Part shown: piece by piece, positions 3,115-58,202 of the stretch
How the letters are laid out: every line of letters starts with the position of its first letter
How positions within the stretch are numbered: position 1 is the first letter of the stretch
Assembly: GCA_947494695.1 (NCBI GenBank)
Contig: CANLWB010000005.1
Coordinates: forward strand, 186,001-250,000
Origin: an uncultured Flavobacteriaceae bacterium
Lineage (GTDB): Bacteria; Bacteroidota; Bacteroidia; Flavobacteriales; Flavobacteriaceae
Direction: 5' to 3'
DNA: 64,000 nucleotides
Position numbers and translations under genes: made by a program
The notes under the pieces: generated by a model
The model's database searches: none
Seen by the model: the letters and a program-made list of their open reading frames with translations, nothing else
Told to the model about the DNA's origin: nothing

Positions 3115-3247
3115 AATGTTTAATTAAATTTATGCTTAAAGATATTCAAAAAGAATAAGTGTGCCATAATTGTTTATAATTATTAATAAATCTACTTAAT
3201 TAAGAGCGTAACAATGGTTATTTTCACAACGTAAAATTTTATATAGT

Positions 3248-5614: not shown

Positions 5615-5633
5615 TTTTAAGATCGAATAATTT

Positions 5634-6551
5634 TTATTCTTTTGACATAAATCCATTATTTAGACGGAAATTTAATACAATCCCATGAGTATCCATTAAA
5701 GTACTTTTTGTATTTTTATTGTAATTGTATAATATTCTAATATGATTGGTGATATGGAAGCCCGCTAGAAAATTCATGGAAGAATTAGTCCGGTATCCAA
5801 CACCAACTTCATATTTATTTTTATAATTAACCTTGGTATTAAAATCGGTCTGTATGGGAGCTCCCGCAACATGCTTAATGAGTACACTAGGATTAATCAT
5901 AACTTCTTCAAAACGTGTGGCAAAAAAGCGATATCCGGCATGAAGGTAATACGTACTTTTTATATTTATATTATTTTCAGAAGATAAAGAACCTCCTAGT
6001 AGATTAGGTATAGAGAAACCTATGTACATATGCTCTTTATTATAAGATACACCTGCCCCTAAAGTGGGTACAATCGTATTAATATTGTTGGCAAAGTTTG
6101 GATCGTTCTGAATTCCTAATTCTAATAGATTTTCATCATAGATCATAACACCTCCTGTTATTCCAAAAGAGAGCGCATGGGGGTTATAATCGAACCATCT
6201 ATTTCGGTCTGATTTAAAAAATAATTTATAAGAATACGCGCCAAACATACTTGTTGTGGTAGTAACTCCAACTTGATCGCTATAAACTCCTCCTCCTAGT
6301 CCTACATTTTTTAAGCCAATTGGAGAATTAACCGTTAGCCCAATATTTTTTGGACTTCCTTCTATTTTATTTAAATGGCCTCTATTGGTTATTGTAATAT
6401 CAGTATCTGGATAAAAACCTGCATGAGCTGGATTAATAATCACATTATTATAGCTGTAATTTGCAAAAACAGGGGTTTGTTGTCCAAATATAGAATGTAA
6501 GCACACTGTTGATAACATTACTGCTATCAATATTATATTTTTAATTTTCAT
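5634..6551 (-). CDS. PorP/SprF family type IX secretion system membrane protein
   Basis: The 305-residue protein has a signal peptide (ends IFGQ). It begins with the family hallmark QQTPVFANYSYNNVIINPAHAGFYPD and continues with alternating amphipathic strands typical of an outer-membrane beta barrel. PorP/SprF proteins pair with T9SS cargo carrying a type B (gliding-motility-associated, CHU_C) C-terminal domain and are thought to help hold it on the surface. The ATG lies 3 bp after the stop of the large type B cargo gene, so the two are a cargo-partner operon. It converges with the helicase gene, whose stop is 19 bp away; no clear terminator is visible in that gap. Confidence 0.93.
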   Translation of the reverse strand: MKIKNIILIAVMLSTVCLHSIFGQQTPVFANYSYNNVIINPAHAGFYPDTDITITNRGHLNKIEGSPKNIGLTVNSPIGLKNVGLGGGVYSDQVGVTTTTSMFGAYSYKLFFKSDRNRWFDYNPHALSFGITGGVMIYDENLLELGIQNDPNFANNINTIVPTLGAGVSYNKEHMYIGFSIPNLLGGSLSSENNINIKSTYYLHAGYRFFATRFEEVMINPSVLIKHVAGAPIQTDFNTKVNYKNKYEVGVGYRTNSSMNFLAGFHITNHIRILYNYNKNTKSTLMDTHGIVLNFRLNNGFMSKE

Positions 6552-6554
6552 AAA

Positions 6555-9500
6555 TTATCGTTTTAAAACAAGGAAACCTGTTTCTTTTTTCAAATGATGA
6601 GTCCCGTCAATTTTAATATGAAAGAAATAGGTACCCTCTGGTAATATATCTGCTCCTAGGTTTCTTTTTCTGTTAGCGATGCCTCTAAAAGCTTTAGAAG
6701 TATTATTATAACCGGTAGCTTCAAAAACCAAATCCCCCCATCTGTTATATATCAATACTTTATTATTAGGGTAATTATCAATACCATCTATTTCCCAATA
6801 TTCATTTATTCCATCACCATCTGGAGAAAACCCATATTTAGTTTCATCTGCTTCTAATGGGGTTACAAACACTGTTATTGTATCTTCTGCAATACAGCCC
6901 TCATCATTGGTGAAACGTAATGTATATGTTGTTGTTTCTGTTGGGTTTGCTATCGGATTTGCTATAGTAGTATGACTTAATCCTTCAGAAGGCGACCATT
7001 GTAACGTACCTGGGTTTGATGCTGAAATTATGGCATTCAATTGTGTCGCTTGCCTTTCTACGATTTCAAGATTTTCTCCTGCATCTATAGTGCATACTAT
7101 TGGATCTACACGGTCTATAACAATTTCAAAATCACATGCAGCAGTATTACCATAATCATCTGTAACAGTAATTACTAAAGTCGTATTTGCTATAAATGCA
7201 GTGCCAGCCCTAGGGCTTTGGGTAATCTCAAGATCAGAATCACAATTATCTGAAGCAGCTATACGAGTTGTATAATCAGGTAAGGTTGATCCTGTGGCTA
7301 AATTTTGATCATCTAGACAGGTTGTAATCACTGGATCTTCAACATCCGGACTCTCATTGATAGTAAATCGGCAGGTATCCGAGTTCCCTGAAGCATCCGA
7401 GACTGTCATGATGACTTCCATACCATCGGTAAAAGGACTACCGACTGCAGGGGTCTGGGTAATTCTCGGTGAGGCATCACAATTATCTGTAACGGTCATT
7501 AAACCTATATAATCTGGTACTACAGCACCACAGGATAAGGACTGATCTGCGATGCAGCTAAAAGTAGGTGGTGCGGTATCCGGACTCTCATTGATAGTAA
7601 ATCGGCAGGTATCGGAGTTCCCTGAAGCATCCGAGACTGTCATGATGACTTCCATACCATCGGTAAAAGCACTACCGGCTGCAGGGGTCTGGGTAATTCT
7701 AGGTGAGGCATCACAATTGTCTGTAACGGTCATTAAGCCTGTATAATCTGGTACTACAGCACTACAGGATGATGACTGATCTGGGATACAGCTAAAAGTA
7801 GGCGGGGAGGTATCCGGACTCTCATTGATAGTAAATCGGCAGGTATCCGAGTTCCCCGAAGCATCTGAGACCGTCATGATGATCTCCATACCATCGGTAA
7901 AAGCACTACCGACTGCAGGAGTCTGGGTAATTCTCGGTGAGGCATCACAATTGTCTGTAACGGTCATTAAGCCAGTATAATTTGGTACTACAGTACTACA
8001 GGATAAGGACTGATCTGGGATACAGCTAAAAGTAGGCGGGGAGGTATCCGGACTCTCATTGATAGTAAATCGGCAGGTATCCGAGTTCCCCGAAGCATCT
8101 GAGACCGTCATGATGATCTCCATACCATCGGTAAAAGCACTACCGACTGCAGGAGTCTGGGTAATTCTAGGGGAAGCATCACAATTGTCTGTAACTGTCA
8201 TTAAACCAGTATAATCTGGTACTACAGTACCACAGGATAATGACTGATCTGCGATGCAGCTAAAAGTAGGAGGTGCGGTATCTGGACTTTTATTGATAGT
8301 AAATCGGCAGGTATCCGAGTTCCCTGAAGCATCCGAGACCGTCATAATGACTTCCATACCATCGGTAAAAGCACTACCGACTGCAGGGTTCTGGGTAATT
8401 CTAGGGGAAGCATCACAATTGTCTGTAACGGTCATTAAACCTGTATAATCTGGTACTACAGTACCACAGGATAATGACTGATCTGCGATGCAGCTAAAAG
8501 TAGGCGGATCGGTATCTGGGTTGGCTTCAACCAAAAACGAACAAGAATTTCCGTTTCCTGAAGGGTCTTCGACAAACGCGGTGACACGAACATCTCCTGT
8601 AAAAACTGTTCCCGCAGCGGGATCCTGCCTGTATGAAACTGTTGCACTACAATTATCGGTAACACTTAGTAATGAAGAATAATCAGGTATTAAATCTCCA
8701 CAATTTAGATACTGAGTAGCAGGGCAAGTTACTATGGGGGCCTCTACATCTGGTGTTGAGGCTGTTACGTTAAAAACACAAGTATCACTATTTCCAGATT
8801 CATCTGTATATGTTACCATAATTTCAATGCCATCATAGAATGTACTACCTTCTGCTGGAGTTTGGCTCCAACGAATCGTTTCACTACAGTTATCTGCCAA
8901 ATTCATCATTGGATCTAATGCATAATTTGGTATAGTAGCACCACATGGTAATGTTAGGGAAGAGGGACAATTAAAAGTGGGAGCTTCAGTATCTGTACCG
9001 GAAGCATTGATCTGTATGCTGCACGAATTACTATTTGTCGCATCATCTGTTGCGGTAAACGTTATCGTCATGCCATCGTAAAACTTTGATCCGGGTCCTG
9101 GGTCTTGTGTAACGTCTATAGATGTATCTATATCGTCTGTCACCGTCAATAATGGTATATAGTTAGGAACAGGGTCTCCACAAGCTAACACCTGGTCTGG
9201 AGGACAAGTAATTGTTGGAGGCGTGGTATCTGAGCTAGACAACGTTGTAACATCATTGATATGGTAGATTTCACCTTGATTACCAGTAGCATCTTCCAAA
9301 AATAAATAGACATCATATGTCGTACCTGCTGTCAATGAAGAAATAACTTCGTCTATATCGGTATTCGCTATATCCATCAAAAAATTGCCACTTGTTACAG
9401 TTCCCGTTGCATTACGAATAGCATCATGATCCATGGTGCCTCCAAAATTTCCTGGTAAAATGGCGTAGTGTATGGTTCCTGTTTCTGGTCCATTAACACG

Positions 9501-41667: not shown

Positions 41668-42747
41668 ATGAAACTGTATATTCATCCAATCCTTTTTACA
41701 TTATTCCTTATCATGGGGTGTAGTAGTAGTACACCGATAGAAAGTCAGGTGGACGACAATACGGTTGAACCTCCAACCAATGGAGATACAAACACCTGGT
41801 TGCTACCAATTTCTCAAGTAAGAGATGGAGGTCCCGGCAGAGACGGTATCCCATCGATTAATGATCCTGAATTTATAGATGTTAGCGAAGCGCCAGGGAT
41901 TTTAAGAGACGAAGTGCGAGTTGTTGGGATTAAAATTGGAAGTACAGTAAGGGCTTATCCACACTATATATTAGATTGGCATGAAGTTGTAAATGATGAT
42001 ATTAAAAGCACTTCGGTAGCTATTACCTACTGCCCGTTAACCGGATCGGCCATTGCATGGAATAGACGAATAAATGGAAGAAAAACATCGTTTGGAGTAT
42101 CGGGTTTGCTTTATAATAATAATGTAATCCCTTTTGATAGGACAACCAATAGTAATTGGTCACAATTAGGTTTACAATGTGTAAACGGGACCTTAATTGG
42201 CGAAACACCAGAAGTTATGACGCTTGTTGAGACCAATTGGTTTATTTGGAAAGCGATGTTCCCCGAAACCACTATTTTAAGCACGAACACGGGGTTCGAC
42301 AGGACCTATGGAGTCTATCCCTACGGCGATTATATCACCAATAATAATGCATTGATATTTCCTTTAACAAAAGACGACAGACGATTACCAAGAAAGGAAC
42401 GCGTGCATGCCATTGTAGACGAAAATCAGTCTAAAGTGTACCGATTTAACACTTTTGGAGGCGGAAAAGCCATTAAGGACACTTTTAATGGTAAAAATAT
42501 TTTGTTGGTTGGAGGTAACGAGACGATTGTTTCTTTTGAGTTGAATTCTGAAAATACATTGAGCTTCAAATATATTTTTAATACTAGTGAAGCTTATTTT
42601 GAGGATAGCGCAGGTACCGTATATAATGTCTTTGGACAGGCTATTTCCGGGCCAGGAAAAGGAAAACGTCTTAAGGCAACCAACTCTTTTATAGCGTATT
42701 GGTTCTCCATAGGGGCATTTTATCCCAATCCCGAAATTTTTGAGTAA
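41668..42747 (+). CDS. DUF3179 domain lipoprotein
   Basis: The 359-residue protein is a lipoprotein (lipobox IMGCSS, Cys18) with an acidic linker and a DUF3179 domain: GIPSINDPEF, YPHYILDWHEVVND, VAITYCPLTGSAIAWNR (conserved Cys near residue 122), FGVSGLLYNNNVIPFDR, and DRTYGVYPYGDY. The family is widespread in marine bacteria and archaea and has no established function. It appears to be a single-gene unit; the preceding hairpin isolates it from the pirins. Confidence 0.9.
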   Translation: MKLYIHPILFTLFLIMGCSSSTPIESQVDDNTVEPPTNGDTNTWLLPISQVRDGGPGRDGIPSINDPEFIDVSEAPGILRDEVRVVGIKIGSTVRAYPHYILDWHEVVNDDIKSTSVAITYCPLTGSAIAWNRRINGRKTSFGVSGLLYNNNVIPFDRTTNSNWSQLGLQCVNGTLIGETPEVMTLVETNWFIWKAMFPETTILSTNTGFDRTYGVYPYGDYITNNNALIFPLTKDDRRLPRKERVHAIVDENQSKVYRFNTFGGGKAIKDTFNGKNILLVGGNETIVSFELNSENTLSFKYIFNTSEAYFEDSAGTVYNVFGQAISGPGKGKRLKATNSFIAYWFSIGAFYPNPEIFE

Positions 42748-46904: not shown

Positions 46905-48251
46905 ATGTCTGACGATTTTGATTTATTGGAAACCAATTCTAACGAGAAAGCAGAAAAAGTAGATGTCAATTGGGGTAAGGCCATTGATACTATGAAATCT
47001 AAATTATCTCAGGAAGATGACCCGGAGGTGCGGCAAAAAATATTGAATGCCACACTAGATGACGTGGTTCATATGGCAGAAAAAGATAGAACGACGCTTT
47101 TAGATGCTATTAAAGACTTAACCGATTATCAAGATGAAGTAGGCATCATTTTTGAAAAATTCTCTTCGCTTAATGCTACCGAGCAAAAGGTTATTGATGA
47201 TGCTCAAAAAGCTTTAGAGCGGGCTAAAATAGAGTTGGAAGATGCCGAAGCGAAACCAGACACATGGTGGAATAATCTCTGGGGAAGAAAAAGCAAAATA
47301 AAAAAAGCTCAGGACGATCTTAAGGTTGCTGAAAAAACACGTGCTGCCGCAGATAATAAGGCAAAAGCGATGTTTCAGGAGCGTATAGAGAGTGCGGACG
47401 TACAGACCTTGTTAAGTGAATTATCGTATAAATCTCAGGCAGCAGTTGGTAGATTGAAGAATAGGGAGGTTGAGATTAAAGAAGTGGAAGATAAATTACA
47501 GGACGCCATTGTTGAAGCAACGAAGAATCATACCAAAGCCCTAGAAAAGAAGAAGGAAGTAGAGGCTAAACTCGAAGAGCATTATGCTTTGTTAAAACAG
47601 GCACGTCAGGAACTTGAAGACATTGCCGATAAACAATCTGCTGAATATGCCCAGGCCATTGGTAAAGTAACCAAGTTAGAGCAAAAAGTAGAGGAGTTAG
47701 AAGGCCTCAAGAATGCCTATACCACATTGGCGGCTAGTAAAGATAGTTTTGTTCACAAACACAACTTAACCATTAAGGTATTAACTTCACTTCGTAGCAA
47801 TTTGCAAACGCATCGTGCTAAACTAAAGAGTGATACAGAAGAACGTTTAAAGTATTATGATGGTTATGTTGTGGCCTTAAAAGCAAGAACAGATCAGGAG
47901 TTTGCTGCAATTCTGGAACACCTAGGAGTTAAAACCGATGAACATATTGGTGAAACGTTGGCGTCTATGCATACAGCAAGTGCCAAGGCACGTCAGGATA
48001 TGATGGATAATATTCCTGTTCATGAAAAGGTCATGCAAGGTGTTTATAGCAGTTATGCCGAAGCTTTACAGGAAATTCGAGCAAAGGATAGCGACATTCA
48101 GAAGAATTTTGCCGAGCGTTACGGCATCGATATGAAAGAGATTTTTGAAGATTACTATAAAGTCGATCCAAACAAAGCTTCGGGAGACGATGCAGATACT
48201 CCAGGAGATAGCCCTAAACCAGAAACCGGAGATGACGACTTATTATCTTAA
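46905..48251 (+). CDS. Soluble coiled-coil protein, first gene of an uncharacterised cluster
   Basis: The 448-residue protein has no signal peptide or membrane helix. Residues about 95-290 form a nearly continuous charged coiled coil (KALERAKIELEDAEAK, KVTKLEQKVEELEGL), broken by a tryptophan-rich WWNNLWGRK kink near residue 128. A helical C-domain follows (VHEKVMQGVYSSYAEALQEI) and the tail is acidic and proline-rich (ending DDDLLS). The layout recalls all-helical TelA/YaaN-type proteins but I cannot show homology. It is the first of seven co-directional genes up to 56543, including an AAA+ ATPase; a scaffold or remodelling target of that ATPase is a possible role (inference). Confidence 0.85.
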   Translation: MSDDFDLLETNSNEKAEKVDVNWGKAIDTMKSKLSQEDDPEVRQKILNATLDDVVHMAEKDRTTLLDAIKDLTDYQDEVGIIFEKFSSLNATEQKVIDDAQKALERAKIELEDAEAKPDTWWNNLWGRKSKIKKAQDDLKVAEKTRAAADNKAKAMFQERIESADVQTLLSELSYKSQAAVGRLKNREVEIKEVEDKLQDAIVEATKNHTKALEKKKEVEAKLEEHYALLKQARQELEDIADKQSAEYAQAIGKVTKLEQKVEELEGLKNAYTTLAASKDSFVHKHNLTIKVLTSLRSNLQTHRAKLKSDTEERLKYYDGYVVALKARTDQEFAAILEHLGVKTDEHIGETLASMHTASAKARQDMMDNIPVHEKVMQGVYSSYAEALQEIRAKDSDIQKNFAERYGIDMKEIFEDYYKVDPNKASGDDADTPGDSPKPETGDDDLLS

Positions 48252-48493
48252 TTAAAAACCGTATTGCCAGGAAGCAATTTGTTCATGGAGCAAATCTGAA
48301 ATGTAGCTTATATTGATGGTAATTAAAAGATAGATCTAAAATGTTTCCGCGTTAGGGATTGAACGGTTTGTTTGAGGGCCTTGAAAAGAGTGCGTAGTGA
48401 AAGCCCGGCATACCTCGAGTATAAACAAAGGGTAGACAACGCCCATAATACTTAAATAGAATACCAGTAAATCGATAGCCATGGTTTACCGAT

Positions 48494-48521
48494 AACTGAG
48501 ATTGAATACTTAATACTAAAA
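48494..48521 (+). repeat. Heptanucleotide repeats abutting a start codon
   Basis: Four degenerate 7-mers (aactgag, attgaat, acttaat, actaaaa) end exactly at the ATG at 48522. The unit type is the same as at 49721. Confidence 0.6.
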
Positions 48522-49577
48522 ATGTCCATAAACCATATTGTAACTCCATTAGATTCGGCGGTTCTCGATTCCAAAGAACACTATGTCTTCTACCATAAAA
48601 TGATTGATTTTGCATTTAAAGAACTCATTGTTGCCGTACAGCAACACGGGCTATGTAATGATCAGGAGGTTCGTTTGTTTAAACAATATTGCGATTTGTT
48701 ATTGTACTCGATAGAAGCCATGCGAATTAAATATATGTACGATGAAGAGGACCATATGAAGATAGATTTAACGTATTCGGGATTCCCAAACTATTTGGAA
48801 TTTAGGTATTTATTTAATGATTTGGAGTTGCGAGATGATTATCTTAATAAACTTACGCCAATACAGGATTTAAAGGAGGAGTTCTTAGATACTTTAATGC
48901 GCAAAAAAAAGCCTGTTAAAAGGAGTAAATTGTTTCAAGCGGCATCTATAGTGTATTATTCGTCTGTTAAGAAAGAGTATATTTTTAATCGTTTTGTACA
49001 GGGTAAAATTATGGATGCTGTAGATGATTCTCATGGTAAATTACTTACCAGTTGGAGTTTCTATGATGTAGCCCTTAACAGACCGTTTATTTGCTTTATG
49101 TACTTTAATTATGAAGGTAATGAAATAGACGACTACAAAGCAGATATCTATGAGGTTTTAAAGGCAACGGCAGACCGGAAGATGAGCTTGGATACTATGG
49201 CTTATGCGATAGACAGGAAGCTTCCAAAGGTATTCCCGAAACTGATAAGAAGAGTTGATCTGGGGCCCATACACAATGTGTTTGCAAAAGACGAAAATCG
49301 TGTAACACATTCAATTTTAGAAGGTATTGGGAAGAAAGAAATTCCATTAGAGTCTTACGCCATCTCTCTAGAAATAGACGAGGTAGCCTCTAGAAGTGAA
49401 TTTAAAGAGGGTGGTTTTTTCTCGAAGCAGATTTTACAAAAATGGAACGACATTTTTAAAAGAAAATATGTGTTTGCACCCCATCGTATTATACAACTGC
49501 TGCATAATAAAACACCTGATATTATGGACGATTTGGAAAAACACCCGATTGAACTGGCAGGGCTAAAAATGAAGTGA
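48522..49577 (+). CDS. Unknown soluble protein of the AAA+ cluster
   Basis: The 351-residue protein has no signal peptide and no hydrophobic helix. It appears mostly helical, with several Tyr/Phe-rich segments (KQYCDLLLYSIEAMRIKYMYDEED, SIVYYSSVKKEYIFNRFV). I recognise no catalytic motif and no named family. It lies between the coiled-coil gene and the AAA+ gene on the same strand, with heptamer repeats bordering both gaps. Conserved neighbours would be needed to define its job; a physical partner of the AAA+ protein is the simplest guess (inference). Confidence 0.82.
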   Translation: MSINHIVTPLDSAVLDSKEHYVFYHKMIDFAFKELIVAVQQHGLCNDQEVRLFKQYCDLLLYSIEAMRIKYMYDEEDHMKIDLTYSGFPNYLEFRYLFNDLELRDDYLNKLTPIQDLKEEFLDTLMRKKKPVKRSKLFQAASIVYYSSVKKEYIFNRFVQGKIMDAVDDSHGKLLTSWSFYDVALNRPFICFMYFNYEGNEIDDYKADIYEVLKATADRKMSLDTMAYAIDRKLPKVFPKLIRRVDLGPIHNVFAKDENRVTHSILEGIGKKEIPLESYAISLEIDEVASRSEFKEGGFFSKQILQKWNDIFKRKYVFAPHRIIQLLHNKTPDIMDDLEKHPIELAGLKMK

Positions 49578-49720
49578 AAGAGGATTAGGACTTAAATTTT
49601 GAATATGAAAACAACAAGTTTAACTATAGGTAAATAATTTAACGGGATTGGTGTATAGCTTTAGTTCATAATTCTGAGCACTGAAAACTCAAAGCGGTTT
49701 TCTAAACGATACGCACCGGA

Positions 49721-49769
49721 ACTTAATACTTAATACTTAGTACTGAATACTTAATACTGAATAGTGAAC
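49721..49769 (+). repeat. Seven tandem heptanucleotide units (ACTTAAT type) before the AAA+ gene
   Basis: Units are acttaat, acttaat, acttagt, actgaat, acttaat, actgaat and agtgaac; a further degenerate unit (ataacat) leads in phase to the ATG at 49777. Related arrays are at 48494, 53896 and, inverted, at 53681 and 54456. Confidence 0.85.
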
Positions 49770-49776
49770 ATAACAT

Positions 49777-51750
49777 ATGGAACATAACTCAACATTTCCA
49801 ATAAAAACAACCGAACTTGATATGCTTCGCGATGAGGCATCATCCTATTTAAAAAGTGTACAGTGGGAGCAGGGTCAGCGTGCCAAAACCATGGACAAAG
49901 AGGCCAAAGATGAATCCATATTATTGTATTTATCGCGTGCGAATACTGGAAGTAAAGCCGTCGAAATAACATCGGTATCTAAAACCATTTTAGCCTTAAA
50001 AAAAAGGTTATTACCAGATTCTATAGCCATTCCTGTCTATTTAAATCAGACGTTGTATGCCGTACAAGAAGGGCTTACTCTGGGAATTTGGATTAAGGAT
50101 AGCTATTATGATGCTTCAGGATTATCAAGTTTGAACGAAAACAAAACAGCATTAGACACTCATGGCAAACGTGAATTTGAAAGCAAAATGCATACGGCCA
50201 CAGCATTTATGCTATTTGCTACAGCTTATAAAATATTAAATGACTTAAAGCCTTATGCTTCGGATGATTTAAGTGTTATGAAACAGAAATTTGCCGGTAT
50301 TCCAGAGGTCTCTCTTTTGTCTCCTATAAAGGGTATATCGTGCAATCTGTTTTACTTTGACAAGTATTTAGGACATCCCGAAATTATTAAATCGGATAAA
50401 GATGTTATCGATTTTACGGTCGTGTATTTTGAATCGCTTATTGACGAAATTCAATTGAGAAAAGGGAACTTGGAATATACTGAAACCATTGAAGATAGAA
50501 CCTATAAGCTCGAGAATTCAGAATTCGCAGTTTCTGGCTGGAATAATGTGTTTGAAGGAACTGCAAAGAGTGTTGAGTTTAATAAAATAAAATTCGAACA
50601 GATTGTTGGAAATAGGGATGCAAAGCATTTTGCACGCCGTTTAACAGAACGCATGTTAAGCTACGATTTCACTGCAAAAAAGAATCCGTTTCAGGAACTA
50701 GGTGGATTTATGCCTGTTTTTATGGGCTATGGTATTCCGGGAACAGGGAAAAGTATGCTTATTGCGGCTATAGCTACCCGACTTAAAGAACATTGTGATG
50801 CCTTAGACATTCCGTTTTTGTTTCACCCCATGCCAGATACGCTTATAAGCACGTTTCAGGGGGGGTCGGCCGAAAAAATGGTGGAATGGATGAAGCCATT
50901 ACAGGACCCAACAAAATTGATTTTTGCACCGATTGACGATGCCGAGAATAATTTACAAGAGCGTACAGCCCAAGGCGTTTCTGCTGGAGTAAAAGAAGTT
51001 ATCGGCGTGTTTTTAAGATATACAGAAGGTGCTTACGCTGTAAACTATGGAAATAGCTCTATTGGACTTTTTACGAATTTACCCGAAATGCTCGATAAGG
51101 CTGTAATTTCAAGAGTTCAGGGTCGTTTTAAGATTGATGGAGCGCGAACATCACATGATTTTTTAGACCAGGATTACTTGTGGTGGCGTAAATTAGAGGA
51201 AACCATGCCACAGTTTGTAAATATGAAAAACCCTGGAGATTATAATTATCTCCAGGATCAAGGGGTGGCCAGAAACATGGGTGAAATTCTTAATGTTATA
51301 AATAAACCAACCGAAGCGCGTGTGCATGAGGTTTACGATAGCATAGAAAAAGAGTTTAAAACCAACGAGCACCTGTTCTATGCTAATCTTTATAAAGCGA
51401 TACAAAAGGTATTTCCGTTCTTTTCGTCTCGGGATGTTAGGAATATTCAAAGTACAGTATCCCTAAGGTTAACAGATTTCAACTTGGAGAAAGACTGGTT
51501 CGAGAATCCTGAAATTTATTTCAAACAAGATTATGAAACCAAGTTTAACATGCTACAAGAGTTAATGCGAGCCAATATGAAAGGTTTAGACTTTTCGGAA
51601 ATTAGAAGGCAAGAAGTCGTAAGATACATAGACAATGTCGCAACTATTGCCGATACCGATTTTAAGCGTAAGGTCGATACCAGAGTAAACCAATTGCATG
51701 TAGAACGAGAAGCAAGACATAATTTTGAGAATGACAACGAATCGTATTAA
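49777..51750 (+). CDS. AAA+ ATPase of an uncharacterised cluster
   Basis: The 657-residue protein has an uncharacterised N-domain of about 290 residues and one AAA+ module. Walker A is GIPGTGKS (residues 319-326); STFQGGSAEKM matches the pore-loop position of classical AAA unfoldases. Walker B reads IFAPIDDAE (Asp387, Asp388), so aspartate replaces the usual catalytic glutamate. A sensor-1-like GLFTNLPEM and an arginine-finger-like VISRVQGRF (Arg446) follow. The C-terminal 200 residues are helical and charged. No membrane segment is seen. The gene overlaps the NUDIX gene by 20 bp. A remodelling ATPase acting on another cluster protein is inferred. Confidence 0.88.
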   Translation: MEHNSTFPIKTTELDMLRDEASSYLKSVQWEQGQRAKTMDKEAKDESILLYLSRANTGSKAVEITSVSKTILALKKRLLPDSIAIPVYLNQTLYAVQEGLTLGIWIKDSYYDASGLSSLNENKTALDTHGKREFESKMHTATAFMLFATAYKILNDLKPYASDDLSVMKQKFAGIPEVSLLSPIKGISCNLFYFDKYLGHPEIIKSDKDVIDFTVVYFESLIDEIQLRKGNLEYTETIEDRTYKLENSEFAVSGWNNVFEGTAKSVEFNKIKFEQIVGNRDAKHFARRLTERMLSYDFTAKKNPFQELGGFMPVFMGYGIPGTGKSMLIAAIATRLKEHCDALDIPFLFHPMPDTLISTFQGGSAEKMVEWMKPLQDPTKLIFAPIDDAENNLQERTAQGVSAGVKEVIGVFLRYTEGAYAVNYGNSSIGLFTNLPEMLDKAVISRVQGRFKIDGARTSHDFLDQDYLWWRKLEETMPQFVNMKNPGDYNYLQDQGVARNMGEILNVINKPTEARVHEVYDSIEKEFKTNEHLFYANLYKAIQKVFPFFSSRDVRNIQSTVSLRLTDFNLEKDWFENPEIYFKQDYETKFNMLQELMRANMKGLDFSEIRRQEVVRYIDNVATIADTDFKRKVDTRVNQLHVEREARHNFENDNESY

Positions 51751-52324
51751 AAACATAGTAAGTAAACTACTTTCTGATAATTATTACATCCTAAAGAAAC
51801 TCACGTTCGACTATCTTATGACAGATGGTAGGTGGGTAACGCAAGAGCGGGAAGTTTACGATAGAGGAGACGGAGCAGGAATTCTGCTTTATAACATAGA
51901 AAAACAAACGATCATTCTAACCAAACAATTTAGAATGCCTACCTATATTAATGATAATGCAGATGGCTTTTTAGTGGAGATTTGCGCAGGAATGCTGGAT
52001 AAGGATAATCCGGAGGCCTGTATTATTAGGGAAACAGAAGAAGAAGTAGGATATAGAATAAAAGAGGTTAAAAAAGTGTATGAGGCCTATTCGTCGCCTG
52101 GTGTGATGACCGAAAAGATGTATTTCTTTATTGGCGCGTATACCGATGATATGAAAGTTAGTCATGGTGGTGGATTGGAGAGTGAACATGAGGATATTGA
52201 GGTTCTGGAATTACCGTTTTCTGATGCCGTTAAAATGCTTAAGAACGGAGAGATTCATGACACTCGAACGATTGTATTATTACAGTATGCCATAATACAT
52301 GAGCTATTGAAGGATGGACATTGA
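51731..52324 (+). CDS. NUDIX hydrolase, GDP-mannose pyrophosphatase (NudK)-like
   Basis: From the ATG at 51731 the protein has 197 residues (a TTG at 51725 is less likely, as the family starts near this ATG). The Nudix box is complete: G-MLDKDNPEACIIRETEEEVGY carries the G-x5-E-x7-REUxEExGU pattern near residue 80. Upstream QEREVYDRGDGAGILLYN and FRMPTYINDNADGF are typical of the NudK/ADP-sugar pyrophosphatase branch. The expected reaction is hydrolysis of GDP-mannose or a related nucleoside diphosphate sugar. It overlaps the AAA+ gene by 20 bp, which ties it to the cluster. Confidence 0.9.
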   Translation: MTTNRIKNIVSKLLSDNYYILKKLTFDYLMTDGRWVTQEREVYDRGDGAGILLYNIEKQTIILTKQFRMPTYINDNADGFLVEICAGMLDKDNPEACIIRETEEEVGYRIKEVKKVYEAYSSPGVMTEKMYFFIGAYTDDMKVSHGGGLESEHEDIEVLELPFSDAVKMLKNGEIHDTRTIVLLQYAIIHELLKDGH

Positions 52325-52419
52325 ACGCCTGCCTGTCAAATGCTTAGGTAGTTGAAGAACTAAACGTATAAATTAATAACAATAAACAATGAGATTCCCG
52401 TTTTGTGGGCATGTGGACT

Positions 52420-53655
52420 ATGGACAAATTAATAGAAGCCAATTTATATAGAGGTGAGCTTATTCCGGTAAGTGGTAAACTGGTGGATCGGTATAATGAG
52501 TGTCTTAAGAAACTCGGATTCACCGAAACAAACCTAACAACATTTCATATAGATGGAATGGGGTGGAGTCCTGAAGTTGCAGAAGAGAAGAAGGAAGTAC
52601 ATTATTTAAACAATGGAGATGCTAATGCTCATGGCATTATAATTTCTCCGCTTCAAAAAGGAAAACCGGTATATACCCCTTTTCATACGTTCGATAGAGA
52701 TATGATGCTTCATGTTTTTAAAACCTATGGAGAGAAAATAAAGGACATTACTAGAGATTGTGCTATTTGTTTGGATTTCGATCAGGGAATAGATGCCTTT
52801 TATGAGCCTTTAGATGTGTTAAGATACGAGACTATTACCATAAGTTTTCACCTGATAAATAAATTAAGAAAAGTACAGAAAAAACAACTGGAACTTATCG
52901 AAATTTTTAATAGAGACAGCAATTTTATTGATGAAAGTATTCATGAACAAATCCTGACTTCTGCCAAAACCCATGGCGATCTTCGCCATAGAGATTTAGA
53001 ATTACCACCTATTCAATTTACAACAGACTCCTTTTATACCAAGGCGTTTAAAGGCGTTTATGTATTAAGGGATTTTATTACGCCTATTTTGGTTTTTGAA
53101 GATGAAACATGGTATAAAGAAGCTATTAAAGACACCAATTATCAGGTGCTTATTTATCATATCAGTCAGCCAGAATTGATGCCTAAATTACGAGATCATG
53201 TCATTATAGAATATAATTTGGAAACTGCTGTGAAAACAGAACGTTACGAGCGTATTAAGAAGTTTGAAATCACACAATATCTAAAAAACACACAACACCC
53301 GATAAAAGATATTTTAGAGAATCCGATTCTTTATAAAAGTTATCTTAATAAATTGGATATAGAGTCTCGCAAGAAGGTGATGAGTGTAGAACGTTATTTG
53401 GAAAAATTAGAAACCAGTAATCAATATAAAATAGCAGATGTCGTAGATACAAAGTTATTCGAAGCCCTGCACAAACCCCATTCATCTCTGGAAGGGAAGC
53501 ATCAGGATTTAATTTGGAAGTTGTTGGTGAATGTGTCTCCCAAAGATGTGCTATACTGGTATTGGTATGATAAAGAAGATTTTTACCAAAACTTTGAGTC
53601 CTGGGATGACTCTTTTAAGGCATGGGTTATCGAAACGATTAGTAACAATATTTAA
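52420..53655 (+). CDS. DUF6638-like protein of the AAA+ cluster
   Basis: From the ATG at 52420 the protein has 411 residues (MDKLIEANLYRGE); ATG 52411 and GTG 52405 are in frame upstream. It is soluble, with no signal peptide, and begins with an NLYRGELIPVSGKLVDRYNECL region, followed by alternating strand and helix segments (CAICLDFDQGIDAFYEPLDVLRYETITISFHL) and a tryptophan/tyrosine-rich C-terminus (VLYWYWYDKEDFY). From memory this matches DUF6638, a Bacteroidetes family without known function. It stands 95 bp after the NUDIX gene on the same strand. Confidence 0.8.
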   Translation: MDKLIEANLYRGELIPVSGKLVDRYNECLKKLGFTETNLTTFHIDGMGWSPEVAEEKKEVHYLNNGDANAHGIIISPLQKGKPVYTPFHTFDRDMMLHVFKTYGEKIKDITRDCAICLDFDQGIDAFYEPLDVLRYETITISFHLINKLRKVQKKQLELIEIFNRDSNFIDESIHEQILTSAKTHGDLRHRDLELPPIQFTTDSFYTKAFKGVYVLRDFITPILVFEDETWYKEAIKDTNYQVLIYHISQPELMPKLRDHVIIEYNLETAVKTERYERIKKFEITQYLKNTQHPIKDILENPILYKSYLNKLDIESRKKVMSVERYLEKLETSNQYKIADVVDTKLFEALHKPHSSLEGKHQDLIWKLLVNVSPKDVLYWYWYDKEDFYQNFESWDDSFKAWVIETISNNI

Positions 53656-53680
53656 GGATTGTAGACTCATCAAGTGGGGA

Positions 53681-53711
53681 GTTAGAGGCTTGGTGCTTGA
53701 AGTATAAAGTT
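53681..53711 (-). repeat. Inverted-orientation heptamer-type repeat
   Basis: gttagaggcttggtgcttgaagtataaagtt contains, on the minus strand, the aactttatacttc and ctctaac pieces that recur in forward orientation at 53894-53919. The two copies flank a 32-codon frame at 53742-53840. Confidence 0.55.
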
Positions 53712-53741
53712 CCGTTTATGAATTAAAAATATCGTTGAACT

Positions 53742-53840
53742 ATGAAATTAAAGTTTAAAGATTTAATTATTTGCAAAGAGGACATGAATATTCTGGCTCA
53801 GAAATTTCCAAAGGAAGTGCTTTATAAGTTATCTTCATAA
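53742..53840 (+). CDS. Possible 32-residue peptide
   Basis: An ATG frame (MKLKFKDLIICKEDMNILAQ, to ...YKLSS) fills part of the 267-bp gap between the DUF6638-like gene and the small membrane protein. It has reasonable composition but no known relative, and its length alone is not significant. It may be a relic or a real small protein. Confidence 0.25.
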   Translation: MKLKFKDLIICKEDMNILAQKFPKEVLYKLSS

Positions 53841-53895
53841 TTGGATGGAAAAATAAATGGTATTTAACATGTATGAGTGATGGGGGGCTAGCCTC

Positions 53896-53916
53896 TAACT
53901 TCATACTTCAAACTTT
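53896..53916 (+). repeat. Three heptanucleotide units before a start codon
   Basis: taacttc, atacttc and aaacttt lie 6 bp before the ATG at 53923, the same position relative to a gene as the arrays at 48494 and 49721. Confidence 0.6.
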
Positions 53917-53922
53917 ATAAAC

Positions 53923-54444
53923 ATGGGACTAGATTTAATAATTTTTATCGCTGCCATATTTTTTGGGGCCTTTTTGTACTGGAGGGAGTCCCGAAGCAAC
54001 AGGCTATATCGGTTTTTCAATAAGGTTCTTAATTCGAAAGCGTTACAGATGAAGCCAGAGAACAAGAAGGGGTTTGTTTATCAACAAACGTTTCTGGCAC
54101 GCTTAATTTTTATTGGTGTTTTGTTTTTAATAGGTATTGTTATTACTCGTTTTTTAATTCCTATAGACATTACGACCATTTCAATGTTTGCTTCTATGAT
54201 TGTTGGAACTCTTATTGGGACTTACCTGGCAAACGTTATATTTAAATCGGGTGACCTTATTGAAGAGAAATCAGAATCCCTAGAAGACCTTGTACAGGAT
54301 ACTATTGAAAAAGGAAAGGACTTCATTGAAGATATAAAAACCAAAGATTTGGAAAAGGAAGTCGAAGTAAAAGACGAAAATGAAGCTCCGGAAGGAGAGC
54401 AAAAAAGTGCCAGAGAGCGGTTGAAGGATAAGGGCTTGTTGTAA
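53923..54444 (+). CDS. Membrane protein of the AAA+ cluster with charged cytoplasmic tail
   Basis: The 173-residue protein has three hydrophobic segments (about residues 3-20, 54-74 and 80-105: LIFIGVLFLIGIVITRFLI, SMFASMIVGTLIGTYLANVIF). A helical tail rich in Glu and Lys (DLVQDTIEKGKDFIEDIKTKDLEKEVE) ends DKGLL. The tail could form a coiled coil. No family is recognised. Its place before the second membrane protein suggests a membrane module for the soluble proteins upstream (inference). Confidence 0.8.
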   Translation: MGLDLIIFIAAIFFGAFLYWRESRSNRLYRFFNKVLNSKALQMKPENKKGFVYQQTFLARLIFIGVLFLIGIVITRFLIPIDITTISMFASMIVGTLIGTYLANVIFKSGDLIEEKSESLEDLVQDTIEKGKDFIEDIKTKDLEKEVEVKDENEAPEGEQKSARERLKDKGLL

Positions 54445-54455
54445 TCGTGAATTGT

Positions 54456-54499
54456 ATTGAGTATTAAGTGCTAAGTATTAAGTATTGAGTATATTAAGT
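54456..54499 (-). repeat. Heptanucleotide repeat array, inverted orientation
   Basis: attgagt, attaagt, gctaagt, attaagt, attgagt and a partial unit are the complements of the ACTTAAT-type units seen upstream. The array starts 12 bp after the stop of the small membrane protein gene. Confidence 0.8.
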
Positions 54500-54827
54500 G
54501 AGCGGAAGGCGATGATGGTATTTAGAGGGCGTCGTATGGTTTTGTCTATGTTTGGGTTCTGGGATTTCGGATTTGTTTGTTACGATTATTGTTGAGTTGT
54601 AATACTTTTGCGAATAATTAGAGTAAAGACTATCAAAACTCATCTTGACTTTTTGTTTTTAACCGAAAATGAGATGAAATTTGTTCAGATGAGTTCAATA
54701 GAAAAAAATAAAATTATATTACAAGATTTGAGTTATAACATGAGATTGATTTTGATGAAGGGGTGTCCCTTTAATTAAACATATTTAATTCTCAGCATTC
54801 TTAAAATGTACAAAACAAAGCATAAAA
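54500..54827. other. Long leader or intergenic region before the last cluster gene
   Basis: The gap holds a TACTTTTG box (54603-54610) identical to the -7 element of the OmpA-family promoter. It also holds a 9-bp perfect inverted repeat AACTCATCT (54637-54645) / AGATGAGTT (54687-54695) with a 41-nt loop. A TTG-started 56-codon frame (54608-54778) crosses the region but has no relative I recognise and I do not call it a gene. If the box is a promoter the leader is about 210 nt. Confidence 0.45.
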
Positions 54828-56543
54828 ATGATTAAAAATTACTGGAACAGAGGAAAACGTCAAAAGATTAAAACCATAATCATTGGGTCGATCTTACTCA
54901 TTTTATTATTTGTTTTAAGAGACGATTACCAACCTGCTTTACTATTTGTTAGAAAATTTATTTTCGTCATTTTACTAAGTACCATAGTTTTGGTCATTGG
55001 TTTGAGAAAGTTCCGAAGATCGGCAAATACCTTTACACGTTTATTAATCTTAGGTATCATGTTGGCTTTCTTCTTCGTATTATATGGGGTCGGGTGGCAT
55101 TTTAAAATGTACGACTATATGAAAACTTATAATGTTTTTAATAGTCTCAATAGAATTGAAATTAATGAATTGCCGTTAACTCAAAACGAAAGGATCCAGC
55201 CACTTAGAAACGTATTCTCTATGGCCAATGAAAGTGTGGGAGAAACCAAAGATGTCTCATTACCACATCTGGTACGAGTTGGGGAAGAGAATAAGTGGAC
55301 CATGGCCATTCAACCCACAGAAAAGTATGTATGGCAGGGTATGACGGATAACACAGAAGAAGTGTTCTCGGTATCTAGTACTACACCATTTCCCAGGTTT
55401 TCTAATGAAAATAGGATTCCTGTAACCTTTTCAATAGGGGAGTCGTTAAAGTTTAGTAGAAACACTTATAACGCTGTTGTACAGAGATTTAATCTCTTTC
55501 AGTTGTTCACCATGGAACCTAGTGATACGTACTACATGAAAAATGACGACGGACATTGGGTAGAAGTCGTGAGCTTAATAAAATGGAAAGGTTTTTTATT
55601 TCCATATCCAACTTTTGGGGGTGTTATGGTTATTGACAGTGGGGCGCATGATTTTAGCGATTATATCGAACGTATTTTAATAGGAAAGGGAACATATATA
55701 GATCCGAAGGATATGAAAAACCATCCGTATCTAACAAAACAAAATACACTGGCTGAAAAAGTATCACGTTTACAGGCAGAGTCTTTAAAGTTTTTAGGTG
55801 GATTTAGTGATCCTTTGCCCTGGAATATGGAAACGGCAGTGAAGATTCCGAATTTACCAGACGATCAAAATAAACAACCGTTTGTAACAGATTTTGATTT
55901 TTCTGAAACGAATGTTGATGCTTATAGTGGCTTATACCATTGGTTTGGTCTCGAACCAGTAGGAGACGAACGAACCAGTTTAACCTTTAGTGTTTTTATT
56001 CCTGCAGATGGTACCGATAAGGTATATTATTACGATCACGCATCTAAAAAACAGGGATATGCGGGTGTATCGGCTATGCCATTAAAAGTTATTGAATCTC
56101 GGAAGGAGTTCGATTGGTCGGTAAATAAGCCCGTTGAATTTAGACCTTATATTAAAGATATTGCTGGAAGGAAGCGCATGTTCTTCTTGGGAACAATATC
56201 GGCTGTTAGAGAAGGTTCTGAAAATTTTGATGGGTCCGCCACACCAGATTTAGCCCTTATTGATAGCGAATATCGAGATGTGGTTTGGATTGATGTGAAG
56301 CACCCAAGTCAATGGGATAAGACGGTTTATGATCAATTAAACGAAGCGTGGAGAGCCAGCGAAGGCATTGGGTACTACTTTATAGAAAAAACCAGAAAAA
56401 TAGATATTTCTGAAACGACTAAAGATTCTATTCCTATTGTTCCTGAAGAATATATTCTTATGGAGCCAGAGTTAGATGATAATGATGATGAGATTGAAAG
56501 ACTTCAGCGGAAAATAGATTCTTTAAAGGCTATTGGTAAATAA
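54828..56543 (+). CDS. Membrane protein with large extracytoplasmic domain, last gene of the AAA+ cluster
   Basis: The 571-residue protein has three N-terminal hydrophobic segments (about residues 16-33, 38-57 and 71-92). A soluble region of about 400 residues follows, rich in aromatic strand motifs (GLYHWFGLEP, VYYYDHASKKQGYAGVSAMPLKVIE, RMFFLGTISAVREGS). A short acidic coiled coil closes it (ELDDNDDEIERLQRKIDSLKA). The odd number of membrane segments leaves the topology of the big domain open. No known fold is recognised. It is separated from the rest of the cluster by 383 bp and may have its own promoter. Confidence 0.82.
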   Translation: MIKNYWNRGKRQKIKTIIIGSILLILLFVLRDDYQPALLFVRKFIFVILLSTIVLVIGLRKFRRSANTFTRLLILGIMLAFFFVLYGVGWHFKMYDYMKTYNVFNSLNRIEINELPLTQNERIQPLRNVFSMANESVGETKDVSLPHLVRVGEENKWTMAIQPTEKYVWQGMTDNTEEVFSVSSTTPFPRFSNENRIPVTFSIGESLKFSRNTYNAVVQRFNLFQLFTMEPSDTYYMKNDDGHWVEVVSLIKWKGFLFPYPTFGGVMVIDSGAHDFSDYIERILIGKGTYIDPKDMKNHPYLTKQNTLAEKVSRLQAESLKFLGGFSDPLPWNMETAVKIPNLPDDQNKQPFVTDFDFSETNVDAYSGLYHWFGLEPVGDERTSLTFSVFIPADGTDKVYYYDHASKKQGYAGVSAMPLKVIESRKEFDWSVNKPVEFRPYIKDIAGRKRMFFLGTISAVREGSENFDGSATPDLALIDSEYRDVVWIDVKHPSQWDKTVYDQLNEAWRASEGIGYYFIEKTRKIDISETTKDSIPIVPEEYILMEPELDDNDDEIERLQRKIDSLKAIGK

Positions 56544-56933: not shown

Positions 56934-58202
56934 ATGAAATTTTTAATAAACAAAAACGCTCTAATTTTGTTGTTCGCATGTATGCTAATCATTAATAGTT
57001 GTAGTAAAAACAATAATAATCCGGAAGAACCGGAACCAACCCCTGTTGAAGTAGAAGATACGCCAACAGCAGCAAACGATGTTCTAACGGTGGATGAAGA
57101 TAGTAGTGCAGGTACAAATAATCAAATAGATGTTTCTAAAAATGATGATATAGGGGAGAATGGGGGAGATGATGATGATTACAGTTTATCTGCTAATGCA
57201 AGTCATGGTAATGTGACCGAGGTTAGCGATGGTGTGTTTGAATATATACCCGTTGCAGATTTTAATGGTATAGATAGTTTTACTTATACGATTACAGATT
57301 CTGATGGAGATAGTGATGATGCCACAGTAGACATTACGGTAAATAGGGTTCTTTCTGCCGAAGATTTTAATAATATAGATCCCAATTTCCCTTCTTTTGT
57401 ATCCATTACCAATACAACGCCAGATAATAAAAAATGGGTTAAATTAGAAAGTATGTCAGATGAATTTGAAGTTTGGGATAGTTCAAAATGGTTCAAATCT
57501 ACCTGGGATTATAATGAGCCTGTTTCTGTAACCCAATCGAATAATAATTCTGGAGTAGCAGATGGGAATTTATGGATTAAAGCCACATTGGGTAGTGGAG
57601 ATAGATGGTTTGAAACCGCTAGAATTCATTCTATTGCAGAAACAAGTTACCCAATGTATACTGAAGCAAGAATTAAAACAGCACATATTTCGGCCTATAA
57701 TACGTATTGGTTAAATAATGGAGATAGTTTTAATAGAGATGAGATTGATATTATAGAAAATAATTCGAATCCCTCATGTGGTTGTCAACCAGATTTCCCA
57801 AATCAAATGAATTCACAATATTTTCAGGCAGATGAAAATGAAACACCAGAGGTTATTAGACAACATGGAAACTTCTTGCGGTCTAATTTATCTCCAGTAA
57901 ACCCGTTAAGGAATGTAGGTTGGAATGAAGATTATCATACCTACGGTGTTTGGTGGAAAGATTCTAAAAATATTCAGTTCTATTTAGATGGTGAGCCAGC
58001 AGGAAGTGTTGTGGTTGGGGAACATTTAGATGGACAAACTTACAATAGGGAGTTTACAAGAGAATTGGAAATCATTTTTGATTTATGGACAAATGAGGCG
58101 GCATGGCTAGGTGGACTTCCTCCAAAATCTGATTTAGGAGATGATACGATAAATACAATGCGTGTCGATTGGGTTAGAACCTGGAAGCTAGAAGACGAAT
58201 AG
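56934..58202 (+). CDS. GH16 glycoside hydrolase lipoprotein (agarase/porphyranase-like) with cadherin-like domain
   Basis: The 422-residue protein is a lipoprotein (lipobox IINSC, Cys23) with an acidic linker. A cadherin-like/VCBS-type domain covers about residues 45-140 (AANDVLTVDEDSS, FEYIPVADFNGIDSFTYTITDSDGD), and a GH16 beta-jelly-roll covers about residues 160-420. The catalytic motif is DEIDIIEN (E-x-D-x-x-E, near residue 270); WDSSKWFKSTW, MYTEARIKTAH, TYGVWWKDSKNIQFYLDGE and the terminal MRVDWVRTWK are typical of the agarase/porphyranase side of GH16. It should act at the cell surface on a galactan. Exact specificity is not determined, and no SusC/SusD pair or sulfatase is adjacent. 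Confidence 0.88.
   Translation: MKFLINKNALILLFACMLIINSCSKNNNNPEEPEPTPVEVEDTPTAANDVLTVDEDSSAGTNNQIDVSKNDDIGENGGDDDDYSLSANASHGNVTEVSDGVFEYIPVADFNGIDSFTYTITDSDGDSDDATVDITVNRVLSAEDFNNIDPNFPSFVSITNTTPDNKKWVKLESMSDEFEVWDSSKWFKSTWDYNEPVSVTQSNNNSGVADGNLWIKATLGSGDRWFETARIHSIAETSYPMYTEARIKTAHISAYNTYWLNNGDSFNRDEIDIIENNSNPSCGCQPDFPNQMNSQYFQADENETPEVIRQHGNFLRSNLSPVNPLRNVGWNEDYHTYGVWWKDSKNIQFYLDGEPAGSVVVGEHLDGQTYNREFTRELEIIFDLWTNEAAWLGGLPPKSDLGDDTINTMRVDWVRTWKLEDE

Follow-up and report, generated by a model that had tools for sequence, protein, structure and literature searches.

The window analysed here is a stretch of 64,000 nucleotides from an uncultured Flavobacteriaceae bacterium (contig CANLWB010000005.1, positions 186,001 to 250,000), in which seven consecutive genes are built around an AAA+ ATPase (ATPase associated with diverse cellular activities). 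Four of the encoded proteins, a soluble coiled-coil protein (cc), an alpha/beta protein of 351 amino acids (hel), the ATPase itself and a DUF6638 protein, are conserved as a unit across two distant bacterial groups, the Flavobacteriaceae and the Proteobacteria. A three-helix membrane protein (tm3) and a large membrane protein (tmS) belong to the module in the Flavobacteriaceae alone, so that the cross-phylum core consists of four genes, and the seventh gene, for a NUDIX hydrolase, is an optional guest. The module is undescribed in the literature searched, but of a known general kind, that of the AAA+ remodelling machines. We read it as a stably inherited chromosomal machine in which a membrane-anchored motor would thread or remodel cc, with a role in envelope maintenance or stress, a reading to which we give a probability of about 0.35.

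Conservation and chromosomal site in the Flavobacteriaceae

The seven plus-strand open reading frames (ORFs) reported in a preliminary description of this stretch, which was made from the sequence alone, are all present at the positions listed in Table 1. Three of the products have Pfam matches that agree with the labels proposed for them: AAA (E 1.8e-8), NUDIX (5.6e-11) and DUF6638 (6.8e-29; 101.4 bits, with the cut-off at 27). Nothing was found above the Pfam cut-offs for cc, hel, tm3 and tmS. By hydropathy three membrane helices are present in each of tm3 and tmS and none in the other five proteins; those of tmS are N-terminal and are followed by a soluble domain of about 475 residues. Positive-inside reasoning would place the charged tail of tm3 in the cytoplasm and the large domain of tmS in the periplasm.

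Table 1 Genes of the cluster and motifs of its ATPase in the window
Feature	Coordinates	Strand	Description	Occurrence
cc	46905..48251	+	soluble coiled-coil protein, 448 amino acids, core gene 1	108/112 family, 83/84 proteobacterial loci
hel	48522..49577	+	alpha/beta protein, 351 amino acids, core gene 2	109/112 family, 84/84 proteobacterial loci
AAA+ ATPase	49777..51750	+	classic (CDC48/Vps4-like), 657 amino acids, own N-terminal region of ~270 residues, core gene 3	
Walker A	50725..50754	+	GYGIPGTGKS, residues 317-326	GxGxPGTGK[ST] in 197/197 ATPases
Pore-loop position	50854..50862	+	F-Q-G, residues 360-362	F 113, Y 84, Q 197, G 196 of 197
Walker B	50932..50940	+	I-D-D, residues 386-388	second Asp in 197/197
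Arginine-finger candidates	51112..51126	+	R446 and R450	197/197 each
NUDIX hydrolase	51731..52324	+	YffH/AdpP-NudK subfamily, optional guest	52/112 family, 0/84 proteobacterial loci
DUF6638 protein	52405..53655	+	PF20343, core gene 4	110/112 family, 81/84 proteobacterial loci
tm3	53923..54444	+	173 amino acids, charged C-terminal tail, family-specific partner	106/112 family, 0/84 proteobacterial loci
tmS	54828..56543	+	571 amino acids, family-specific partner	105/112 family, 0/84 proteobacterial loci

The window's ATPase was used as the query in 397 genomes of the Flavobacteriaceae, the family of the source organism (hereafter the family), and matched in 119 of them. Five of these matches are weak and limited to the AAA core, while the 114 real ATPases are 68-100% identical to the query, 113 being near full length and one partial. 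Outside the family there were weak core matches only, in 18 of the 148 genomes of an order sample and in 3 of the 198 genomes of a phylum sample. Up to 20 kb around the ATPase gene were taken from the 114 carriers, the window itself and the partial gene being excluded, which gave 112 family loci; as the query, the ATPase is present by construction in all of them and in the 84 proteobacterial loci introduced below.

The six genes other than that for NUDIX are found together, in the order and on the strand seen in the window, in 103 of the 112 loci (two of these, L134 and L135, each include a gene cut by the contig end). Because of this co-occurrence the clustering of the six is far above chance. 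The site is recurrent as well. The gene upstream of the cluster in the window is that for EttA, which stands upstream in 72 of the 112 loci, a 73rd match (L168) being weak and downstream, and among the downstream genes relatives of the MarR-GNAT gene of the window recur in 46 loci and those of its arginase-family gene in 44. In 19 loci taken from genomes without the ATPase none of the six genes is present at E<=1e-3; in 11 of them the sequence retrieved still shows one or more right-flank genes after EttA, and the right flank of the other eight lies outside what was seen. In one ATPase-less locus (L302) the arginase-family gene lies less than 100 bp from EttA. The six genes therefore behave as a unit that a given chromosome either has or lacks at this site. 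Among 296 genomes of the phylum DUF6638 was found in four, every one of which also has the ATPase.

Evolutionary distances were compared across 65 loci for the six genes and the adjacent EttA. Those of the six intercorrelate at 0.63-0.82 and correlate with those of EttA at 0.46-0.71. The mean distance is smallest for cc (0.13), followed by the ATPase (0.15), tmS (0.23), hel (0.29), DUF6638 (0.30) and tm3 (0.39).

The patchy presence of the ATPase (114 of 397 family genomes, one of them with the partial gene) and a PADLOC match of IetA to its core (E 2.2e-5) would suit an anti-phage defence system related to IetAS, which we hold to be quite improbable. The likeness to IetAS is confined to the AAA core, residues 318-456 only, no relative of the module turned up at E<=0.001 among 50,697 phage records, and the mostly fixed site, with its EttA and its recurrent downstream genes, is unlike that of a mobile defence island. 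With a partial IetA match and no IetS-like (subtilase) protease among the seven proteins, membership in IetAS is unsupported.

A four-gene core shared with Proteobacteria

A tblastn search of plasmid records gave 10 with DUF6638, at least 80% of the query being covered in each, and 10 with the ATPase, at a query coverage of 77-88%; the carriers are Sinorhizobium, Rhizobium, Shinella and Vibrio. A further 20 records, from Burkholderia, match the AAA core of the ATPase, and tmS had no match in the plasmid records. Three annotated plasmid stretches show two unnamed genes (359-382 codons), the ATPase and DUF6638, in that order. In a Sinorhizobium plasmid locus the ATPase and DUF6638 genes are separated by two others, one for a protein with an endonuclease domain and one for a transposase.

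A profile of both groups was run against 84,980 species genomes and gave at least 559 confirmed relatives. The best 80 of these, nearly all from Alphaproteobacteria with the addition of Psychromonas and Halomonas, were combined with four plasmid loci into a set of 84 proteobacterial loci. In these Alpha- and Gammaproteobacteria the order cc-hel-AAA-DUF6638 is kept (counts in Table 1; the ATPase in all 84), and of the four absences of a core gene three fall on contigs shorter than 8 kb, that of DUF6638 in L186 being the one that does not. Profiles built from the family only found their counterparts among the proteobacterial ORFs at E<1e-3 for cc in 72, for hel in 84, for the ATPase in 84 and for DUF6638 in 81 of the 84 loci; those of tm3 and tmS found none in the 84. 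Alignment of family against proteobacterial profiles gave E-values of 1.4e-13 for cc, 8e-27 for hel, 2.6e-64 for the ATPase and 9.5e-43 for DUF6638. In a sample of 190 genomes of one class, centred on a carrier of the module, the ATPase and DUF6638 were each found in the same three genomes, no more than about 1.1 kb apart, one of the three being the genome on which the sample was centred.

The gene-neighbourhood search that the preliminary description had proposed as a check thus shows the genes kept together elsewhere, as six in 103 of the 112 family loci and as the four-gene core in the 84 proteobacterial loci. The idea of a single seven-gene system holds for six genes within the family and fails for NUDIX, which is present in 52 of the 112 loci.

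Most of the proteobacterial loci have membrane proteins of their own. Relatives of DUF1523 occur in 64 of the 84 loci, and 58 contain a two-helix protein of 88 residues. Gene order was compared in seven of the DUF1523 loci, those of Roseobacter, Ruegeria, Hellea, Roseibium and Halomonas among them, and there the membrane genes come after DUF6638. In 13 of the 84 loci, of Rhizobiaceae type, DUF6638 is followed by relatives of DUF2333. The Pfam names DUF1523 (PF07509) and DUF2333 (PF10095) rest on four proteins and one protein scanned, respectively. Profile comparison gave no homology of tm3 or tmS to DUF1523, DUF2333 or the 88-residue protein, nor of DUF1523 to DUF2333. No function of DUF1523 or DUF2333 was found in the available parts of the literature searched.

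In two Vibrio megaplasmid loci (L174 and L177, 13130-16591) a gene annotated mfd (transcription-repair coupling factor) stands after the module, and an mfd relative occupies the same place in a Psychromonas locus (L191). SMc02733 of Sinorhizobium meliloti may be a module gene, since shmR of this species is reported to be SMc02726 (PMC2848241) and, in strain Ak57, only a few genes separate the module from a TonB receptor of the hemoglobin type. A DNA fragment bound by ChvI is reported from within SMc02733 (PMC3687685), a weak lead that was not used as evidence.

The NUDIX gene and other guests

The NUDIX ORF spans 51725-52324 (199 amino acids) and encodes 197 amino acids if the in-frame ATG at 51731 is used; the 20-bp overlap with the ATPase gene noticed in the preliminary description holds for that start. 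The protein scores 159.9 bits against TIGR00052 (cut-off 79.55) and falls just below the threshold of the NudK equivalog (230.7 against 234). Wherever it is found in the family loci, the gene sits in the slot between the ATPase and DUF6638 genes. It was not found in 60 of the 112 family loci (one of which, L137, ends inside the ATPase gene) and has no relative in the 84 proteobacterial loci. One family genome without the ATPase (G340) carries, after EttA in locus L288, a NUDIX gene 78% identical to that of the window. The order there is EttA, NUDIX, four tandem relatives of the lipoprotein gene found downstream of the cluster in the window, and then the right-flank genes, and none of the six core genes is present. 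A further core-less locus (L287) holds a NUDIX 55% identical to that of the window. The slot also takes an amidohydrolase-type gene (four loci) or a CheB-CheR-PAS gene (one locus).

The NUDIX protein could be imagined as a working part of the machine, which would provide the ATPase with a nucleotide-sugar or ADP-ribose signal or take that signal away. Such a role would fit the overlapping genes of the window and the constant slot in 52 of the 112 family loci, and a report on Pseudomonas fluorescens MFE01, in which a DUF2333 gene and a NUDIX gene are one gene apart, points toward a NUDIX link (PMC5256989). We nevertheless disfavour it as very improbable and reject NUDIX as a working part. It is an optional guest or neighbour and no part of the machine, since it was not found in 60 of the 112 family loci nor in any of the 84 proteobacterial ones and is present without the core in L288 (as is the 55%-identical copy in L287), and its slot is also open to the amidohydrolase and CheB-CheR-PAS genes. 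The attached nucleotide-sugar hydrolase of the preliminary description is accordingly given up.

Other genes adjoin the module or enter its gaps. The lipoprotein gene next to the cluster in the window (56934-58202) encodes bacterial Ig/cadherin-like domains. In L288 its four tandem relatives (3130-8987) occupy the place held elsewhere by the six-gene module, and the one relative that was scanned in this genome matches glycosyl hydrolase family 16. A gene for a four-helix bundle of the 23S rRNA-intervening-sequence type (PF05635, Avd-related, from the scan of one representative) recurs as a guest in 17 of the 112 family loci, either between hel and the ATPase or between DUF6638 and tm3, e.g. 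at 7514-7900 of L110. In 6 of the 112 loci the DUF6638-tm3 or ATPase-DUF6638 gap holds a free-standing gene for a GIY-YIG nuclease, identified on one representative, e.g. at 7243-7551 of L070. In L122 (genome G072) the ATPase-DUF6638 gap is enlarged to about 9 kb by the insertion, on the strand of the module, of a gene for a 1490-residue CheB-CheR-multi-PAS protein, all six core genes being retained.

The ATPase motor

An alignment of 197 ATPase sequences (113 from the family, 84 proteobacterial) underlies the motif counts of Table 1. Judged by these motifs, the ATPase carries the hallmarks of a classic peptide-threading AAA+ motor. In common with CDC48/VCP, Vps4, Rpt and katanin it has a Walker A motif, an aromatic residue at the pore-loop position, the sensor-1 Asn (TN/SN), which is invariant in the alignment, and two arginines; the F-Q-G site is taken by us to be pore loop 1 because its position agrees with that of the loop in classic AAA+ proteins. 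The canonical Walker B of classic AAA+ proteins is hDE. The departure of the present ATPase from this clade lies in its Asp-Asp (hDD) form, in which Asp replaces the Glu, and it further differs in its private N-terminal region and in lacking any match to MIT or Vps4_C at E<=1. Profile searches against PDB returned CDC48/VCP, Rpt subunits, Vps4, Pch2 and katanin as relatives over the AAA core (E 5.6e-10 for VCP-like proteins, 9.4e-7 for Vps4 and 2.7e-5 for katanin).

The main rival to our reading starts from the same motor and makes it a quality-control unfoldase, which would extract or unfold inner-membrane or envelope clients (e.g. tmS, DUF1523 or DUF2333), with cc as adaptor or chaperone in place of substrate. 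In favour of such a role are the classic type of the AAA+ protein, its aromatic pore-loop residue and its closest matches in PDB, which are unfoldases (CDC48 and the proteasomal Rpt subunits, for instance); the clients could vary by lineage, as the membrane partners do. We nonetheless consider it doubtful: no protease family is found among the seven proteins, and cc, the slowest-evolving of the six, is more like a constrained structural substrate.

An AAA+ motor beside a helical coiled-coil protein is also the likeness of the module to the ESCRT-III/Vps4 and Cdv systems. Membership in ESCRT-III is unsupported at the level of Pfam comparison, in which cc has no Snf7 and the ATPase no MIT or Vps4_C match at E<=1. 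For hel and DUF6638 no counterpart among the ESCRT proteins is known to us.

The coiled-coil and alpha/beta proteins

The clearest motif of cc, which reads TWWNNLWGRK in the family, is a turn rich in tryptophan within a conserved aromatic segment at residues 118-131 (PDTWWNNLWGRKSK); over both groups (n=191) the second W is kept in 172 sequences, the G in 188 and K/R at residue 131 in 174. An AlphaFold2 model of cc from 40 aligned sequences consists entirely of long helices and is of low confidence (predicted local distance difference test, pLDDT, 63). Its sub-threshold Foldseek matches are generic coiled coils, SMC arms and F-BAR domains, some with a probability of 0.9-1.0.

The preliminary description called the 351-residue protein an unrecognised helical protein. 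Unrecognised it remains, whereas simply helical it is not: the AlphaFold2 model (39 sequences; pLDDT 86.5, predicted template modelling score 0.85) is confidently alpha/beta, its N-terminal part being helical and its C-terminal part an alpha/beta domain in which the strands are long. No PDB structure matched the model at E<=0.001 (best E 0.064), and the best of the viral models (E 6.7e-3, probability 0.14, template modelling score ~0.1) assigns no fold.

That cc might be a diverged TelA or PspA, and the module a TelA-like or PspA-like system for envelope or toxic-oxyanion resistance, seems unlikely to us. TelA (PF05816) is similar to cc in length and helical layout, and a collinear, low-score alignment of the combined cc sequences with 20 TelA proteins pairs the W-x-x-L-x-G segments of the two. 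The score of that alignment is not significant, nor is any other. By hhalign against the 20 TelA proteins the family, proteobacterial and combined cc gave 2.3%, 10.6% and 13.3% in local mode and 0.0%, 32.1% and 26.7% in global mode, as compared with 96.8% and 41.2% for TelA control pairs; an earlier comparison with 3 TelA proteins had given less than 1%. HMMER searches between cc and TelA in both directions reached E 0.016 and 0.6 at best. In Pfam cc matches neither PF05816 nor the PspA family PF04012, and the genome of the window (G000) has no match to either family. Several other module carriers have Pfam PspA, TelA or both; in one of them (G799) TelA and the module lie on different contigs.

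A survey of PspA neighbourhoods describes, in its available part, PspA or Snf7 together with two-domain or beta-propeller-fused AAA+ proteins (PMC11237479). These neighbourhoods resemble the module in combining a coiled-coil protein, an AAA+ protein and membrane proteins; they differ from it in that cc is not established as PspA and that DUF6638 goes unmentioned in the available part (PMC11237479).

Other features of the window

The DUF6638 gene starts at GTG 52405 (416 amino acids) or ATG 52423 (410 amino acids), and a sequence search of its product against PDB gave no match. That of tmS gave one, a protein named lactoylglutathione lyase (E 0.002). Intergenic gaps in the cluster reach 383 bp, compared with medians of 46.5-166.5 bp in the relatives (the gap between the ATPase and DUF6638 genes excluded). 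Copies of a short intergenic repeat (ACTTAATACTTAATACTTAGTACTGAATACTTAATAC and relatives) lie in three of the gaps, at 48503-48520, 49721-49763 and 54454-54492, and may help to explain the longer gaps of the window; the copy at 54454-54492 is inverted (37 nt, 89% complementary). Sigma-70-like promoters are not above chance in the window (36 found, 40.1 expected), and no Rfam family reaches its threshold there. At 41668-42747 there is a gene with a strong match (1.3e-83) to DUF3179, a family without an assigned function.

Discussion

No description of the module was found in the literature searched, nor any mention of DUF6638; the view of the preliminary description that the cluster is not a named defence, secretion or tellurite-resistance operon stands, no described system that includes it having been found there. 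That the ATPase remodels a coiled-coil or membrane assembly, as was also suggested, may reasonably be inferred from the sequences.

From the conservation, order and co-occurrence of the genes and from the motor motifs a likely substrate, location and purpose can be proposed. The coiled-coil protein, which evolves most slowly, would assemble at the inner membrane, on its cytoplasmic side, as the substrate of the motor, with hel and DUF6638 as its putative adaptors. With its cytoplasmic tail tm3, and with its periplasmic domain tmS, may anchor the assembly and couple the motor to the envelope; the lineage-specific membrane proteins in general would serve as anchors or sensors. Pulling on cc, driven by ATP, would then disassemble or remodel the scaffold, in the manner of Vps4 on ESCRT-III, and the purpose of this remodelling may be envelope maintenance or stress. 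It is possible, and we propose it tentatively, that the module is an unrecognised envelope machine independent of both ESCRT-III/Vps4 and PspA, in which an Asp-Asp subfamily of AAA+ proteins threads a coiled-coil polymer with the help of two new adaptors and of membrane receptors that each lineage has as its own.

Several observations weigh against a membrane-anchored motor acting on cc. Nine of the 112 family loci miss some of the six genes; contig ends cut four of them (L098, L137, L143 and L154), and no cut is obvious in the other five (L136, L167, L168, L170 and L171). The distances of the ATPase correlate with those of EttA (0.71) about as closely as with those of cc (0.72), and the value for EttA is no lower than several of those among the six genes. 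In the Vibrio and Psychromonas loci an mfd-like gene follows DUF6638 and no membrane partner was seen, and since the membrane proteins of the different lineages are not homologous, a shared membrane role is read from their position only. The model of cc, itself weak, had no Foldseek match in PDB at E<=0.001 (best 6.2e-3). Kinship of cc with PspA is not established either, there being no PF04012 match and hhalign values of 4.1%, 3.7% and 11.6% against 6 PspA proteins, a comparison of limited sensitivity because distant PspA control pairs (single sequences) scored only 28.0% and 29.1%.

The module ties DUF6638, by position also DUF1523 and DUF2333, and two unnamed protein families to a motor that can be assayed. 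Its ATPase is common enough to be studied, with 114 carriers among the 397 family genomes and at least 559 relatives, yet it is not universal (3 of the 190 genomes of the class sample). If cc is indeed the substrate of the motor, the module would be a further, independent case in which an AAA+ protein drives the remodelling of a scaffold at a bacterial membrane.

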